Shown piece after piece: positions 11,893-47,391 of a DNA stretch of 64,000 bases (positions are counted from its first letter, which is position 1; each line of letters begins with the position of its first letter). The stretch is taken from NCBI GenBank assembly GCA_020444545.1, contig JAHLKT010000003.1, positions 434,001 through 498,000 on the forward strand. The letters are read 5' to 3'. This DNA comes from Desulfarculaceae bacterium (GTDB lineage: Bacteria > Desulfobacterota > Desulfarculia > Desulfarculales > Desulfarculaceae). The position numbers and the translations under genes were made by a program. The notes below the pieces were generated by a model. That model made no database searches, was not told where the DNA came from, and worked only from the letters and a program-made list of their open reading frames with translations.

Positions 11893-12807
11893 ATGGCCAG
11901 CAAGCCCAAGGACCCCCAGGCCTGGATCAGCGGAATCGTCAACGACTTCCTGGCCGAATCGCCCAGCAACGACATGCACAACCAAGCCGGCGACCCGGCC
12001 TGGGACGACGCCCTGGTGGGCTTCGCCTCGGGCGCGGACCCCATCTGGCAGCAATACAAGGAGTACGTGGGGCCCTTCCATTGGACCCCCTGGGAGGTGT
12101 TCAACCAGCACCACCCCGGCGATCCGGTGACCGCCGAGGAGCTGACCGTGATCTCCTGGGTCTTGCCCCAGCGCCCCATGGTGCGCGAGGCCAACCGCAA
12201 GAGCCGCAAGTACCCGGCCGAGGAGTGGGCGCGCATCCGCATCTTCGGCGAGGAGTGCAACGTGGGCCTGCGCAAGCACCTGGTCCAGACCCTGAGCCAG
12301 GCCGGCCACCCGGCGGTGGCCCCCATGCTGGCCTCCAACTGGACTGTGGTCAACTCGCAGCGCTTCGGCTTCGCCTCGTCCTGGAGCGAGCGCCACGCGG
12401 CCCACGCGGCCGGGCTGGGCACCTTCGGGCTCTGCGACGGGCTCATCACCGCCCGGGGCAAGGCGCTCCGGGCCGGCTCGGTGGTGGCCAAGATCAAGGT
12501 GGAGCCCACCCCCCGCTACTACACCGATCACCACGCCTATTGCCTGCACTACACCGAGGGCACCTGCGGCAAGTGCATCGACCGCTGCCCGGTGCGGGCC
12601 ATCACTGTCGACGGCCACGACAAGCAGCGGTGCCGCCAGCACTTGCAAGCCAGCCGCGACTACGTGACCAAGACCTACGGCTTTGTAGGCTACGGCTGCG
12701 GCCTGTGCCAGGTGGGGGTGCCCTGCGAGAGCGGCATCCCGGTGAAGGCGGCCCGCGAGGCCCTGGAACGCGGCGAGCTGCCGCCCCCGCCCGCGCCGCT
12801 GGCTTAA
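11893..12807 (+). CDS. QueG-like 4Fe-4S protein
   Basis: A 304-residue protein resembling the epoxyqueuosine reductase / reductive dehalogenase ferredoxin fold. A central GLGTFGLCDGLIT segment is followed by a double-cluster ferredoxin region, CGKCIDRCPVRAI then CGLCQVGVPCESGIPV. True QueG proteins end in a HEAT-like tail and are about 350-380 residues, and that tail is missing here. A role in tRNA modification is therefore doubtful. The ATG at 11893 is preferred; a longer in-frame start has no ribosome site. It stands alone and ends just before a clear terminator. Confidence 0.75.
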   Translation: MASKPKDPQAWISGIVNDFLAESPSNDMHNQAGDPAWDDALVGFASGADPIWQQYKEYVGPFHWTPWEVFNQHHPGDPVTAEELTVISWVLPQRPMVREANRKSRKYPAEEWARIRIFGEECNVGLRKHLVQTLSQAGHPAVAPMLASNWTVVNSQRFGFASSWSERHAAHAAGLGTFGLCDGLITARGKALRAGSVVAKIKVEPTPRYYTDHHAYCLHYTEGTCGKCIDRCPVRAITVDGHDKQRCRQHLQASRDYVTKTYGFVGYGCGLCQVGVPCESGIPVKAAREALERGELPPPPAPLA

Positions 12808-12836
12808 GAGAAAAAGCAGAAGAAGTTTAGAAAAAG

Positions 12837-12868
12837 AAAACCGGCCTCCCGCGCGGGGGGCCGGTTTT
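12837..12868 (+). terminator. Intrinsic terminator of the QueG-like gene
   Basis: AAAACCGGCCTCCC-GCGC-GGGGGGCCGGTTTT forms a stem of about ten G-C pairs ending in a T-run, 30 bases after the stop codon. The A-run on the other side means it could also act on the minus strand. Confidence 0.8.
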
Positions 12869-12906
12869 GATTTAGCCTGACGCCGCCTGCCTTTTCCGGC
12901 TCTCCA

Positions 12907-12981
12907 TGTAGGGGCGGGGTTTATCCCCGCCCTGTCTTTTAAACGGCGCTCTCTCGGGCGGGGACAAACCCCGCCCCTACA
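12907..12981. repeat. Inverted GC repeat pair
   Basis: Two nearly identical arms of about 27 bases in opposite orientation (12907-12933 and 12955-12981), each starting TGTAGGGGCGGGGTTT on its own strand. Each arm is itself palindromic around GGCGGGG...CCCCGCC. A third core copy lies at 33866-33884. This is an intergenic repeat without coding content. Confidence 0.75.
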
Positions 12982-13000
12982 TTGCCAACTTGCCCATTAC

Positions 13001-13049
13001 TTGTCATTGCGAGGAGCGGCTTCCCAGCCGCGAGGAAGCAATCTCTGCC
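13001..13049 (+). repeat. CATTGCGAGG-type interspersed repeat
   Basis: Begins TTGTCATTGCGAGGAGCGGC and ends near GCAATCTCTG, with inverted ends CATTGCGAG/AAGCAATC. The first 20 bases recur identically at 33499-33518, and related pieces are at 33608 and, inverted, at 33808-33823. Such palindromic repeats are common between genes in many bacteria. Confidence 0.75.
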
Positions 13050-13089
13050 TGTAAGGGATAGTGCTGCCCGAACGATGCCGCCCGGAAAA

Positions 13090-13148
13090 CCGGATTTCTT
13101 GCCGCGCCGCCAAGGCGTCGCGGCCCCGATAGCCGAGCTATCGGGGCC
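13090..13148 (-). repeat. Two-hairpin CAAGAAATCC repeat, copy A
   Basis: Read on the minus strand: hairpin GGCCCCGATAGC/GCTATCGGGGCC, a second small hairpin around CGCC-TT-GGCG, then the constant end CAAGAAATCCGG. It is oriented opposite to the copy at 13180-13234. Confidence 0.7.
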
Positions 13149-13179
13149 AACAGAAAAGTCTGTCTTCTGCTCCTGCTGC

Positions 13180-13234
13180 CCCCGACAGCTCTGCTGTCGG
13201 GGTTGACGAGCGCCAGCGAGGCAACAAGAAATCC
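13180..13234 (+). repeat. Two-hairpin CAAGAAATCC repeat, copy B
   Basis: Hairpin CCCCGACAGC-TCT-GCTGTCGGGG, a weaker second stem, then CAAGAAATCCCC. Compared with copy A the first stem shows a paired change (T-A to C-G), so its folding is conserved. A third copy is at 33366-33421. Confidence 0.7.
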
Positions 13235-13242
13235 CCCGCTCC

Positions 13243-32287: not shown

Positions 32288-33322
32288 ATGCTGGCGGCGC
32301 GTTTTCACGAGGTAGGCCGACCCCTGGCCCTGGAAGAAATCCCCACTCCCACTCCCGGCCCCGGCCAAGTTCTGATCGAGCTCCGCGCCTGCGGGGTCTG
32401 CGGCTCGGACATCCACATTGCCTACGAGGGCGTGACCCCCACCGCCTACACCCCCATCACCCTGGGCCACGAGCCCTCCGGCGTGGTGGCCGAGCTGGGC
32501 CCGGGCGTGGAGGGTTGGGCAATCGGCGACCGGGCGGTGCTCTGCTGCTTCTTTGTCTGCGGCCAGTGCCTCAATTGCCTGAGCGGCAACCAGCAGGTGT
32601 GCCTGGAGCGGCGCTGCATCGGCATCCAGGCCGAAGGCGCCTTTGCCGAGTACGTGGTGGTGCCGGCCGGCAACCTGGTGCCCCTGCCCGAGAACGTGCC
32701 CTTTGCCCAGGGGGCCATCATCACCGACGCGGTGGCCACGCCCTTCCATGCCCTCAACGCCACGGGCAAGATGCGCCCCGGCGAAACGGTGGCCGTGTTC
32801 GGCTGCGGCGGCCTGGGCATCCACGGGGTGCAGCTGGCCCGCCTGGGCGGCGCTTCCAAGGTCATCGCGGTGGACATGCGCCCGGCCGTGCTGGAGCGCG
32901 CCCTGGCCGTGGGGGCCGACGTGGCCATCGACGCCTCGCGCCAAGAGGTGGTCCCGGCGGTGCTGGAGGCCACGGGAGGCCTGGGGGTGGACCTGGCCGT
33001 GGAGCTGGTGGGCGCGCGAGTGACCATCGCCCAGGCGGTGGATTGCTTGCGCGTGGGCGGCCGCGCGGCGGTGGCCGGGCTGGGGCCCGCGCCCATTACC
33101 CTGCCCCCGCCCACCACCTTCGTGCGCCGCGAGGCCGCGCTCTTGGGCTCCTACGGCTTCACCACCACCGAGATCGCCACCCTGGTGGGCCTGGTGGCCA
33201 GCGGCCGTTTGGACCTCTCGGGCTCCATCAGCCTCACCATGCCCCTGAGCCAGGTGAACCAGGCCCTGGACATGCTGCACGAGAAAAAGGGCGACCCGGT
33301 GCGCATCGTGGTGGAGCCTTAG
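32288..33322 (+). CDS. Zinc-dependent alcohol dehydrogenase (MDR family)
   Basis: A 344-residue medium-chain dehydrogenase. Catalytic zinc ligands C35 and H61-E62 are present, as are the four structural-zinc cysteines C91, C94, C97 and C105, and an NAD(P)-binding Rossmann motif FGCGGLGIHG (171-180). All expected residues are intact. The closest named groups are sorbitol/threonine-type and cyclohexenoyl-CoA-alcohol dehydrogenases; the substrate cannot be fixed. Co-transcribed with the XRE-cupin regulator. Confidence 0.93.
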   Translation: MLAARFHEVGRPLALEEIPTPTPGPGQVLIELRACGVCGSDIHIAYEGVTPTAYTPITLGHEPSGVVAELGPGVEGWAIGDRAVLCCFFVCGQCLNCLSGNQQVCLERRCIGIQAEGAFAEYVVVPAGNLVPLPENVPFAQGAIITDAVATPFHALNATGKMRPGETVAVFGCGGLGIHGVQLARLGGASKVIAVDMRPAVLERALAVGADVAIDASRQEVVPAVLEATGGLGVDLAVELVGARVTIAQAVDCLRVGGRAAVAGLGPAPITLPPPTTFVRREAALLGSYGFTTTEIATLVGLVASGRLDLSGSISLTMPLSQVNQALDMLHEKKGDPVRIVVEP

Positions 33323-33365
33323 CCCCCGTAGCGTCTCTTTCTTGAAATAGCTTTTCGCCTGCTGG

Positions 33366-33421
33366 CCTCGACAGCTTGCTGTCGGGGTCGCCTCGCTTTG
33401 GCGAGACGACAAGAAATCCGG
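33366..33421 (+). repeat. Two-hairpin CAAGAAATCC repeat, copy C
   Basis: Hairpin CCTCGACAGC-TT-GCTGTCGGGG, second hairpin CTCGC-TTTG-GCGAG, then CAAGAAATCCGG. The same element as at 13090-13148 and 13180-13234. Confidence 0.72.
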
Positions 33422-33498
33422 CCGCCAACGCCCCCACGTTCTAACACCTCCTCCCGCCTCGCGGACCGAAGTCTGGCCGATAAATCCCAAAACCTATC

Positions 33499-33823
33499 TT
33501 GTCATTGCGAGGAGCGGCCTGCCGGCCGCGACGCGGCACTCTCTGCCCGCCAGCAGAAGGCAGGTAAAAATGGCCAAGCTCTCCGTCCCTGCCCCTACAG
33601 GATAGCCGTCATTGCGAGGCCCGCCGCTGAAAGAGGTTTTTGAAAAATGGGCCTCCCTCGCGGCGGGCCGTGGCAATCTTCCTTGGTCTCGTCTCCGGTT
33701 CGCGAGAAGAGCCAAAGCCCTCTCTAGCAACCCCCGGACGATCTCAAGGGAAGATCGCCACCTCGCGGCGGGTGCAGGCCCTTTTTCATTGCCCGCCTCC
33801 CGGCCGCCGCTCCTCGCGATGAC
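33499..33823. repeat. Cluster of CATTGCGAGG-type repeats
   Basis: Contains TTGTCATTGCGAGGAGCGGC at 33499-33518 (identical to 13001-13020), another GTCATTGCGAGG at 33608-33619, and inverted ends GGCAATCTTCC, GGAAGATCGCCACC and GCTCCTCGCGATGAC (33808-33823). The copies are nested as inverted repeats, with CCTCGCGGCGGG twice. No gene is supported in 33323-34041. Confidence 0.7.
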
Positions 33824-33865
33824 AGCCATTTCTATAAGGAAGAACCGAGCCGCCCCACATGCAAA

Positions 33866-33884
33866 GGCGGGGATAAACCCCGCC
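33866..33884. repeat. Core copy of the GGCGGGG inverted repeat
   Basis: GGCGGGGATAAACCCCGCC, the same palindromic core as the pair at 12907-12981. Confidence 0.65.
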
Positions 33885-33910
33885 CTCTTTCTTTACGACT
33901 GACCCGAGCC

Positions 33911-34032
33911 CCGGCGGCCGAGTGCGTTGGCGAGGCGTGTCTTTGCAGCGGTTTTAGGACGCAGGCGTATATGCCAATACGCCGAGGACTCAAACCGCGA
34001 AAAGCACGCCGCAGGCAGCAATCGGCCGCCGG
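33911..34032 (-). ncRNA. Long structured inverted repeat downstream of abfD
   Basis: About 120 bases fold into one long interrupted stem. The outer arms are CCGGCGGCCGA-TGC and GCA-TCGGCCGCCGG. A middle stem GCGGTTT/AAACCGC and an apical hairpin GGCGTAT-ATGCCA-ATACGCC follow inward. Between middle and apical stems both strands carry AGGAC in an internal loop. It lies 10 bases beyond the abfD stop. It could be a terminator-like 3' end, a small RNA or a mobile palindromic element; the strand is uncertain. Confidence 0.5.
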
Positions 34033-34041
34033 CCAGAAAAA

Positions 34042-45213: not shown

Positions 45214-47391
45214 CTAGCCTTCCGAGCCTTCCGCCGGGGCCTGGTTAGCGGCCTCGGGCTTGGGCTCTGGCTTGGGCTCTGGTTCCGGCTTGGCCTTGGC
45301 CTCGGGCTGCGGCTCACCCGCGGCCTCTGCTTCCGGCTTGGCCTTGGGCTTGGGCTTGGCCCGGGAGCGGCGTCTGGGCTTGGGCTTGGGTTTGGCCTCG
45401 CCCTGGGGCTCGTCCTTGGCCTCGGGCGCGGCTTCGGCCTTGGCCTCGGGGGCCGCCTGGGCCTCGGGCGCGGGCGGGGCTTCGCTGGCGGAGCCGTTTT
45501 TCTCCGCCTCGGCCTGGGCGGCAGCCTCGGCTTGGGCGCGGGCCTTGGCCCGGGCGCGGCGCTGGGCCCCGGAGGGGCGGCGGCGCTTGCGTTTCTTGGG
45601 CGTTGGAGCCTCGCCCTCGGTCTCGGCGGCCCCGCCGTTGCCTTGCTCGGCGGGCGCGGCCTCGGAGGGCGGCGCGGCCTGACCCCGGCGGGATCTGGGC
45701 GACGGCTTGCGCTCGGGCTCGGGGGCCTTTTCGGCCTTCTCGGCCGGTTTGGCCGCCTCGGCCTCGGCCGGAGCGCTGGATTTCTTGCCCCGGCGGCGCT
45801 TGCGGCTGCTCTTCTTGGGCTGCTCCGGGGCGGGCTCCGGCTCGGCGGCCTTTTCCGGGGCCGGAGCGGGCTCTGACGCGGCCACGGCCGGGACCGGGGG
45901 AGCGGCCAGCTTCCAGGGCTCGCCGCAGGAGTCGATGTCGCAGTCCTCGGGCGCCAGGCCGTGCTCGGCCACCAGCTCCAGGCACACCCCGGAGGTGCTC
46001 TCCAGGCGGGCCAGCTCGCCGCGCTTGACGTTCTGCAGATACTGGGCGGTCTCCGGGGCCAGGCGCACCTGGAGGCCCTTGCCGTTGTACCCCCTGAGCT
46101 TCAGCTCCAGATTGCGCAGCACCGTGCGCCCCACCGCCTCGGTGGTGAGCACCATGCCCCGTCCGCCGCACATGGGGCAGGTCCGGGTGGCTCCGAAGTC
46201 GATGGCCGGGCGGATGCGCTGGCGGCTCATCTCCATCAGCCCGAAGCGGCTGATGTGGCCCACCGTGGTCTTGGCCTTGTCGCCCTTGAGGGCGTCCACC
46301 AGGGCCTTCCTGACCTTGCGCTGGTTGCCCCGGTCGCGCATGTCGATGAAGTCGATGACGATGAGCCCGCCCAGGTCGCGGAGTCTCAGCTGGCGGGCGA
46401 TCTCGGCGGCGGCCTCGGTGTTCACCGCCAGGGCGGTCTCCTCCAGCTGCCGCCCGCCCGAGCTCTTGCCCGAGTTCACGTCCACCGAAACCAGGGCCTC
46501 GGTGGGCGAAATGACGATGCCCCCGCCGGAAGGCAGGCCCACCGCGGGCTGATACACGCTGGAGATCTGCTCTTCCAGCTGGTAGCGGGCGAAGATGGGC
46601 CGCTGCTGCTGGTAGAGCTTGACGATGTTCTTGCGGCGGGGGCTCACGGTGCCCACGAACGCCACCAGGCGATCGAAGATCACCGGATCGTCCACGTAGA
46701 TCTCGGCCAGGTCCGAGGTGAACAGGTCGCGCACCGTGCGCACGGCCAGGTCCTCCTCCTTGTGGATCAGGCTGCGGGCCTTGGCGTTCTTGCCCCGCTT
46801 CTCGATGTCCTCCCACAGGCGCTGGAGCTGCTTGTAGTTGGTGGTCAGCTCGCGCTTACTGCGCCCTTCGGCGGCGGTGCGGGCGATGACCCCCAGTTCC
46901 CCGGGCCGCTCCAGGGACTCCAGGATCTGCTTGATGCGGGTCCGTTCCTTGTCATCGGCGATCTGGCGGGAGACCCCCACGTGGCCGTGGCCCGGGGTGA
47001 CCACCAGATACTGCCCGGGGATGGACAGGTGGGTGGTCAGGGCCGCGCCCTTGTTGCCGGTCTCTTCCTTGACCACCTGCACCAGGAACTGGCGGCCCTT
47101 CTTGAGGACCTCCTGCAAGGGCGGCAGGCCCTTGGCCGGAGCGGAGTGCTCGGCCCAGAGGTCGTTGCGCAAATCGGCGATCTGCAAAAAGCCGTGCTTG
47201 GGGCGGCCGTAGTCGATGAAGGCGGCCTGCAACGAGGGCTCCACGTTGGCGACCACACCCTTGTAGATGTTGCCCCGGGTCTGAGCCTGGGCGGCGGTCT
47301 CCACGTAGAAGGCCTCCAGGCGGCCGTCCTCCACCACCGCCACGCGTAGCTCCTCGGAGCCGGTGGCGTTTATGAGCATCTTTCGTGACAT
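45214..47391 (-). CDS. rne: Ribonuclease E/G
   Basis: A 725-residue RNase E/G. It has an S1 domain (about residues 35-130), the catalytic DNase-like domain with the metal aspartates D304 (SVDVNSGK) and D347 (IVIDFIDM), and the zinc-link CPMCGG (C405, C408). From about residue 505 on the sequence is a disordered Ala/Pro/Glu/Lys tail with basic SRKRRRGKK- and KKRKRRRPSG-type patches, the kind that binds RNA and degradosome partners. It processes rRNA and turns over mRNA in the cytoplasm. The MSRKMLINAT start matches the family. A long leader precedes it. Confidence 0.93.
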   Translation of the reverse strand: MSRKMLINATGSEELRVAVVEDGRLEAFYVETAAQAQTRGNIYKGVVANVEPSLQAAFIDYGRPKHGFLQIADLRNDLWAEHSAPAKGLPPLQEVLKKGRQFLVQVVKEETGNKGAALTTHLSIPGQYLVVTPGHGHVGVSRQIADDKERTRIKQILESLERPGELGVIARTAAEGRSKRELTTNYKQLQRLWEDIEKRGKNAKARSLIHKEEDLAVRTVRDLFTSDLAEIYVDDPVIFDRLVAFVGTVSPRRKNIVKLYQQQRPIFARYQLEEQISSVYQPAVGLPSGGGIVISPTEALVSVDVNSGKSSGGRQLEETALAVNTEAAAEIARQLRLRDLGGLIVIDFIDMRDRGNQRKVRKALVDALKGDKAKTTVGHISRFGLMEMSRQRIRPAIDFGATRTCPMCGGRGMVLTTEAVGRTVLRNLELKLRGYNGKGLQVRLAPETAQYLQNVKRGELARLESTSGVCLELVAEHGLAPEDCDIDSCGEPWKLAAPPVPAVAASEPAPAPEKAAEPEPAPEQPKKSSRKRRRGKKSSAPAEAEAAKPAEKAEKAPEPERKPSPRSRRGQAAPPSEAAPAEQGNGGAAETEGEAPTPKKRKRRRPSGAQRRARAKARAQAEAAAQAEAEKNGSASEAPPAPEAQAAPEAKAEAAPEAKDEPQGEAKPKPKPRRRSRAKPKPKAKPEAEAAGEPQPEAKAKPEPEPKPEPKPEAANQAPAEGSEG

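Follow-up and report, generated by a model that had tools for sequence, protein, structure and literature searches.

A two-hairpin, REP-like repeat and its neighboring RAYT genes in a Desulfarculaceae bacterium

Canonical REPs and REPINs, exemplified by the Escherichia coli REPtron, are intergenic palindromes that occur as inverted pairs and have a flanking RAYT (REP-associated tyrosine transposase) gene. Their hairpin has GT[AG]G at its 5' foot (PMC6006769, PMC8266576), and TnpA_REP contacts this guide through residues that include Q95, E100 (D100 in group 3; RAYT group numbers follow Quentin et al. and Corneloup et al.) and R104. PMC8266576 covers three cleavage-assayed RAYT/REP pairs from three species, states for a flexible group 3 RAYT that GTAG selects the cut, CT by A3G4 and CA by T2G4, and reports failed attempts to shift the cut for two other RAYTs.

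We analyzed a window of 64,000 nt (positions 434,001 to 498,000 of contig JAHLKT010000003.1) from a Desulfarculaceae bacterium. It contains three copies of a repeat that occurs genome-wide as two subfamilies, A and B, beside two RAYT genes, RAYT1 and RAYT2. Like canonical REPs, the repeat is an intergenic palindrome with inverted pairs and a flanking RAYT gene, family A has GTGG at the foot of its first hairpin, and RAYT1 is homologous in sequence and fold to the TnpA_REP of structure 4er8. Unlike canonical REPs, each unit combines two dissimilar hairpins with a conserved CAAGA tail at its 3' end, and family B lacks GT[AG]G. Within the known REP/REPIN–RAYT kind of system, the repeat is set apart by its pair of hairpins per unit and by the changed guide of family B. 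The RAYTs also resemble TnpA_Y1 subclass 2.6, as outlined by Quentin et al. 2018 (PMC6006769), in length (170 aa here, median 179 there), in the WQ motif (WK in RAYT1), in the Y-x-H-x-N-P tyrosine motif and in the 'atypical secondary structures' at their flanks, which also occur at other places in the genome; compared by description, they differ in the HuH motif (DHVH here, NH[LIV]H there), and members of that subclass are mostly from Bacteroidetes. The TIRtrons and their TIRYT, according to Di Nocera et al. 2013 (PMC3733652), likewise have longer, partly self-complementary repeats inverted around a tyrosine transposase, some of them also found elsewhere in the genome, and are distinguished, again by description, from the two-hairpin repeat with a fixed tail seen here. 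IS200/IS605 elements (IS608, ISDra2) share a Y1 HuH transposase and hairpin ends with a 5' guide tetranucleotide, but we saw no long mobile unit bounded by a single left end and a single right end, and RAYT1 scored 30.2 against the IS200/IS605 model, below its cut-off of 55. Literature searches by topic and by sequence words of the element gave no description of this element among the matches listed.

The three window copies, all of family B, comprise the following features, with intergenic regions taken from crude gene calls.

12808-13242: convergent intergenic region with copies 1 and 2; genes end at 12807 (plus strand) and 13243 (minus strand)
13092-13153, minus strand: copy 1, family B (model match C3:447090-447158, 88.3 bits)
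13147-13153, minus strand: copy 1 foot, CTGTTGG
13124-13146, minus strand: copy 1 hairpin 1, CCCCGATAGC..GCTATCGGGG
13102-13123, minus strand: copy 1 hairpin 2
13092-13101, minus strand: copy 1 tail, CAAGAAATCC
13173-13234, plus strand: copy 2, family B (model match, 78.2 bits)
13173-13179, plus strand: copy 2 foot, CTGCTGC
13180-13202, plus strand: copy 2 hairpin 1, CCCCGACAGC..GCTGTCGGGG
13203-13224, plus strand: copy 2 hairpin 2, imperfect
13225-13234, plus strand: copy 2 tail, CAAGAAATCC
33323-34041: convergent intergenic region with copy 3; genes end at 33322 (plus strand) and 34042 (minus strand)
33359-33419, plus strand: copy 3, family B (model match, 76 bits)
33359-33365, plus strand: copy 3 foot, CTGCTGG
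33366-33387, plus strand: copy 3 hairpin 1
33388-33409, plus strand: copy 3 hairpin 2
33410-33419, plus strand: copy 3 tail, CAAGAAATCC

On its own strand, each unit runs from foot through hairpin 1 and hairpin 2 to the CAAGA tail, and copies 1 and 2 form an inverted pair with facing feet between two convergent genes. The foot of the window copies is CTG(C/T)TG plus one base, hairpin 1 is CC(C/T)CGA(T/C)AGC, a short loop and GCT(A/G)TCGGGG, and hairpin 2 comprises 22 bases of variable sequence. A preliminary description of the window had reported three copies with both hairpins and a constant end in common, and all three lie where it placed them, although the conserved unit reaches further 5', into the CTGYTG foot. 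The compensated change it had noted in stem 1 is present, with GATAGC/GCTATC in copy 1 and GACAGC/GCTGTC in copies 2 and 3. The constant end also holds, as CAAGAAATCC in every copy, but hairpin 2 of copy 2 is imperfect and absent from the predicted minimum-energy fold, as DNA and RNA alike. A fourth exact CAAGAAATCC in the window (45778-45787, minus strand) has no hairpins upstream and was rejected as an element, and a covariance-model search of the window at E ≤ 0.01 gave no copies beyond these three.

Searching the complete genome with a covariance model, as the preliminary description had suggested, yielded 85 matches at E ≤ 0.01 with a model built from 21 copies. This number may be a lower bound, since 150 of 7632 first-look candidates were scored by the model, and it includes a few low-scoring rows that overlap other matches. 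The exact word CAAGAAATCC occurs 26 times in the 4.38-Mb genome, compared with 0 for a reversed-word control; 16 of the 26 are element tails and 10 lie in sequence without hairpins. Together with the model matches, these counts show a family beyond chance, with further copies whose stems covary rather than break. Parsing of own-genome loci gave 66 candidate units, of which 61 were kept after five chance hairpins without a family foot or tail had been dropped; model matches that failed to parse are left out of the counts below, in which units are related by descent and not independent events.

Two subfamilies coexist in the genome. Family A has foot GGGTGG and tail CAAGAGG, and family B, the kind in the window, has foot CTGYTG and a CAAGAAA tail, CAAGAAATC. 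Foot and tail were both A in 16 units and both B in 39, with one B/A combination and no A/B, while five further units had one end unclassed (A/other 1, B/other 2, other/A 2). Since the copies share ancestry, this linkage is evidence of two lineages and not of 55 independent events, and family A is likely under-counted, as the model was built from B copies. Among 40 units parsed from part of the matches in four congeners, 36 have the A tail, three (all in genome G001) have CAAGAAA and one has neither; one of the G001 CAAGAAA units has foot CTGCTAC and was filed by the script as A/B. The GT[AG]G tag is found in family A, as GTGG in nearly all own-genome units and as GTAG in some units of genomes G003 and G006. 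The 39 family B copies instead have CTGYTG or a near variant, followed by C, G or A before the stem, so that the window's family is not a canonical REP. The exact B guide is ambiguous, either YTGS at the stem or GYTG one base off it. In both families, the sequence that follows hairpin 2 invariably begins with CA. One unit (L045, C1:759936) joins a B foot and left arm to an A right arm and tail, with the breakpoint within hairpin 1; since its downstream sequence is also common to the A unit at C1:760495, it looks recombinant. As a separate observation, about 20 bases 3' of the tail of family A units in this genome, after CAAGAGGT, are partly conserved (for example, CG at positions 22-23, 18/19 each), a feature not seen in B.

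Two Y1 transposases were found in the genome, and both match the NCBIfam model 'REP-associated tyrosine transposase' (NF047646; 112 bits for RAYT1 and 113.5 for RAYT2, cut-off 80). RAYT1, on contig C7, has an intact open frame with HuH motif PDHVH and tyrosine motif YMHQNP and is flanked, on both sides, by five B units in all. RAYT2, on contig C1, is followed by two A units in inverted orientation, with none on its 5' side. Each gene is thus accompanied by its own repeat family, as in a REPtron. The AlphaFold model of RAYT1 (mean pLDDT 86) has its best PDB fold match in 4er8, E. coli TnpA_REP with a REP hairpin (E 1.8e-9, TM 0.62-0.64; full-alignment rmsd high, 9.7), which is also its best sequence-profile match. 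RAYT1 keeps 23 of the 24 columns that show no variation among 14 further members of the group, one of which, L094, has a stop. The single change, Q to K, aligns with Q95 of TnpA_REP in the profile alignment to 4er8. Other single RAYTs deviate at 0 to 4 of these columns, which makes the location of the change in RAYT1 notable rather than the number of changes. What this change can say of RAYT1 and family B is limited by the other guide-contact residues, which are already different throughout the group (E100, H101 and R104 are all replaced). In the tree, RAYT1 groups with the A-type RAYTs of its genus, RAYT2, L079 and L083 (support 97/96), on a long branch (1.19, compared with 0.21-0.47); two of 11 inner branches are well supported, the root serves for drawing only and the tree gives no firm order within the RAYT1 group.

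A class search of 63 genomes found the RAYT group in six, and a 395-genome sample of the phylum added three RAYTs. Units with the same order of foot, hairpin 1, hairpin 2 and CAAGA also occur beside RAYT genes in other genomes. Of the 16 loci given to the flank parser, 13 yielded at least one two-hairpin unit, the exceptions being L077, L108 and L114; two rows of this parse, at L027, are chance hairpins in genes. L077, whose RAYT lies outside the group, has one model-found unit with foot GGGTGG. Ten of the 13 parsed loci have foot GGTGG in at least one unit, and other feet are CTGYTG/CTTGTTG at L028, GCCAG and GCTAG at L090 and GATAG at L094. The GTGG foot is probably ancestral, since one of the ten loci, L107, is from a planctomycete. 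Tails vary with foot GGGTGG (CAAGAGG, CAAGAAAC and CAAGAAGT, with CAAGAATT in L077), so foot and tail need not co-evolve, and we rejected their co-evolution as a general rule across RAYTs. The congeners G001 and G006 (L059, L175-L183, L208-L211) keep family A with no RAYT of the group at the thresholds used and thus hold orphan REP populations. In G031, the group RAYT at L094 (C26:13112-13543) contains a single in-frame TAA, its flanking element has foot GATAG, and the same genome carries several other RAYTs, intact and partial.

All 61 parsed units are intergenic according to a crude codon-usage gene caller, and about 90% of the window is coding; with 85 model matches, the element is a short, repeated, extragenic palindrome, as REPs are. 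As to position relative to gene ends, another check put forward in the preliminary description, 39 of 60 units lie between convergent genes, 19 between tandem and two between divergent ones, compared with 5, 39 and 6 among 50 neighboring gene pairs of the window, although clustered units sit in common gaps and these placements are not independent. Same-family neighbors less than 300 bp apart are inverted in 14 of 14 cases (families assigned by tail, one pair including a unit whose A foot is combined with an aberrant tail), compared with 2 of 8 for cross-family neighbors. Two sites of the congener G001, with flanks 87-94% identical, lack the element. At the RAYT1 site, 85 bp replace the 988 bp found here, and RAYT1 and its units are absent; the copy-3 gap measures 181 bp instead of 718 bp and contains no element. 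As the 718 bp also hold other repeats, the copy-3 site represents an absence and not a clean single insertion, and G001 may either never have been filled or have lost its units. Drift of the intergenic DNA leaves the exact insertion point undefined, and the empty-site comparison gave neither this point nor a target sequence. For copies 1 and 2, there is no clean empty site in G006 and G007, which hold ~1.4 kb of other sequence between the matched stretches.

Both stems covary, in agreement with the preliminary description. Among 89 distinct model-aligned rows, an alignment that is fitted to the model and therefore leans toward it and that includes family A, both-side changes occur in 182 cells compared with 53.9, 13 of 18 pairs are changed on both sides compared with 7.9, and 92.5% of cells are paired compared with 28-49% upon sliding the partner. 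In an independent MAFFT alignment of 21 copies, 94.5% of cells are paired and 35 cells have both-side changes, compared with a shuffled mean of 12.2; neither the number of both-side-changed pairs (6 compared with 4.3, a value reached in 55 of 500 shuffles) nor that of further pair types (10 compared with 10.9) is in excess in this alignment. The earlier statement that folding rather than sequence is conserved is half right, as the stems are conserved but foot and tail are strongly conserved as sequence. When the whole inverted pair is folded, its two tails pair with each other (z -7.7). A candidate outer stem between a TTTCT-rich 5' flank and the tail was rejected: copy 1 forms it in its folds, copies 2 and 3 do not, and conservation of the 5' flank is weak.

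For the conserved folding, the preliminary description had offered two readings, an RNA and a REP-type element that a transposase copies. A structure acting primarily in RNA, as a terminator, an mRNA 3'-end stabilizer or a small RNA kept for its function, would fit the covarying stems, the excess of units in convergent gaps and the RNA folds of the three window copies, which beat shuffles (z -3.0 to -3.3). Yet single-stranded DNA folds beat shuffles too (z -2.7 to -3.9), and covariation is equally expected of a single-stranded DNA hairpin. At gathering thresholds, Rfam models matched two tRNAs in the window and nothing at the elements, so we rejected a structured RNA family; the three terminator-like sites, in two intergenic regions, lie near but never within an element, which likewise removes an intrinsic terminator (GC-rich hairpin and T-run) as a candidate. 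Hairpin 2 points the same way. Among 40 units from five genomes with a short hairpin 2 (11 or 13 nt), the loop is C-GNA-G in 34, where N is any of the four bases and the stems are of several kinds, although copies share descent and longer hairpins 2, including those of the window, do not follow this rule as such. The GNA loop is not known to be specially stable in RNA. GNA loops closed by G-C pairs form extraordinarily stable mini-hairpins in DNA, as reported in PMC4686876, and the C-GNA-G rule suggests selection for the single-stranded DNA form rather than for RNA. No REP paper containing the word GNA was among the literature matches listed. As each subfamily also adjoins its own RAYT and presence differs between congeners, we consider a primarily RNA-level role improbable. 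Still less credible is a MITE of a conventional DDE transposase or a CRISPR, attC or tRNA-derived repeat: the element is short, dispersed and found in inverted pairs, but matching elements flank two Y1 transposases, elements have no Rfam or tRNA match and, by eye, the ends of family A units do not form a terminal inverted repeat. Intergenic placement, inverted pairs, a RAYT beside the same units and sites lacking units in a congener argue for a REP/REPIN-like element rather than an RNA gene, so that the REP half of the earlier suggestion is well supported and the RNA half is not. We regard it as very probable that the element is a non-autonomous mobile hairpin of this kind, which its cognate RAYT1 would bind, cut and rejoin as single-stranded DNA; family B is proposed to have arisen from family A.

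Under this REP-like reading, a unit would fold when single strands are exposed, during replication or otherwise. RAYT1 would then bind the hairpin and foot, cut the single-stranded B element next to its hairpins through its tyrosine and rejoin the ends, and units or inverted pairs would be copied into other gaps between genes. Any effects of copies on neighboring genes, such as mRNA end protection, termination or supercoiling, would be secondary. Family A, the proposed ancestor, has in GGGTGG the canonical GT[AG]G guide, and this foot adjoins related RAYTs in other genera and in the planctomycete. Family B would have arisen when a duplicated RAYT diverged in one copy, with guide and guide-binding residue changing together, from GTGG to YTGS, or to GYTG one base off the stem, and from the Q95 equivalent to K. 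If the GYTG guide is combined with the group 3 rule, C pairing with G4 and A with T3, the B cut is predicted at C|A, matching the CA at the start of the tail after hairpin 2.

A natural specificity switch within one genome, in which the RAYT guide contact went from Q to K and the tag from GT[AG]G to YTGS/GYTG, giving a second, independently moving REP population, is a tentative extension of this reading. We give the same limited credence to a RAYT-mobilized REP in which the B foot and the Q-to-K change are unrelated drift, family B decaying or having relaxed its specificity instead of having switched. Drift is favored by the varying tails across RAYT loci with an unchanged foot, by the long RAYT1 branch, as relaxed constraint would give, and by a group 3 RAYT that, as stated in PMC8266576, still binds REPs with a mutated GTAG. 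The Q-to-K and foot changes are moreover one event, a correlation with n = 1. Decay sits poorly, however, with the B foot itself, where T19, G20 and G23 are invariant and T22 is kept in 38 of 39 copies, position 21 being C or T, and with the open frame and 23 of 24 retained invariant columns of RAYT1. A GTTG foot abolished cleavage by the Stenotrophomonas maltophilia group 3 RAYT in an assay described in the same paper (PMC8266576), so a changed foot should need a changed enzyme. The genome offers two sister pairs that differ in guide motif and in one otherwise invariant guide-contact residue, as well as one apparent natural chimeric element joining their families, a combination that lends itself to a clean swap experiment on what keeps a RAYT and its REPs matched.

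Other repeats lie beside the elements. A GTAG-tagged hairpin, GTAGGGGCGGGGTTTATCCCCGCCC, forms an inverted pair in the window at 12908-12932 (plus strand) and 12956-12980 (minus strand), and the congener G003 has a different RAYT, L095, with the GTAGGGGCGGGGTTTATCCCCGCCC repeat on both sides. With no third Y1 transposase in the own genome at the threshold applied, this REP appears to be an orphan here. The sequence around 13000-13059 contains stretches with many matches across the genome. Repeats of GTCATTGCGAGG, three exact and one with a mismatch, lie at 13003, 33501 and 33608 (plus strand) and 33812 (minus strand); with two mismatches allowed, they are no more numerous than expected by chance. 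They are similar to the CGTC-tagged REPs that PMC3733652 describes as lacking a dedicated transposase. At the RAYT loci L105 and L106 of genome G021, GTAGGGGCGGTTCGCGAACCGCCC-like hairpins occur within the match and, at L105, also beside it.
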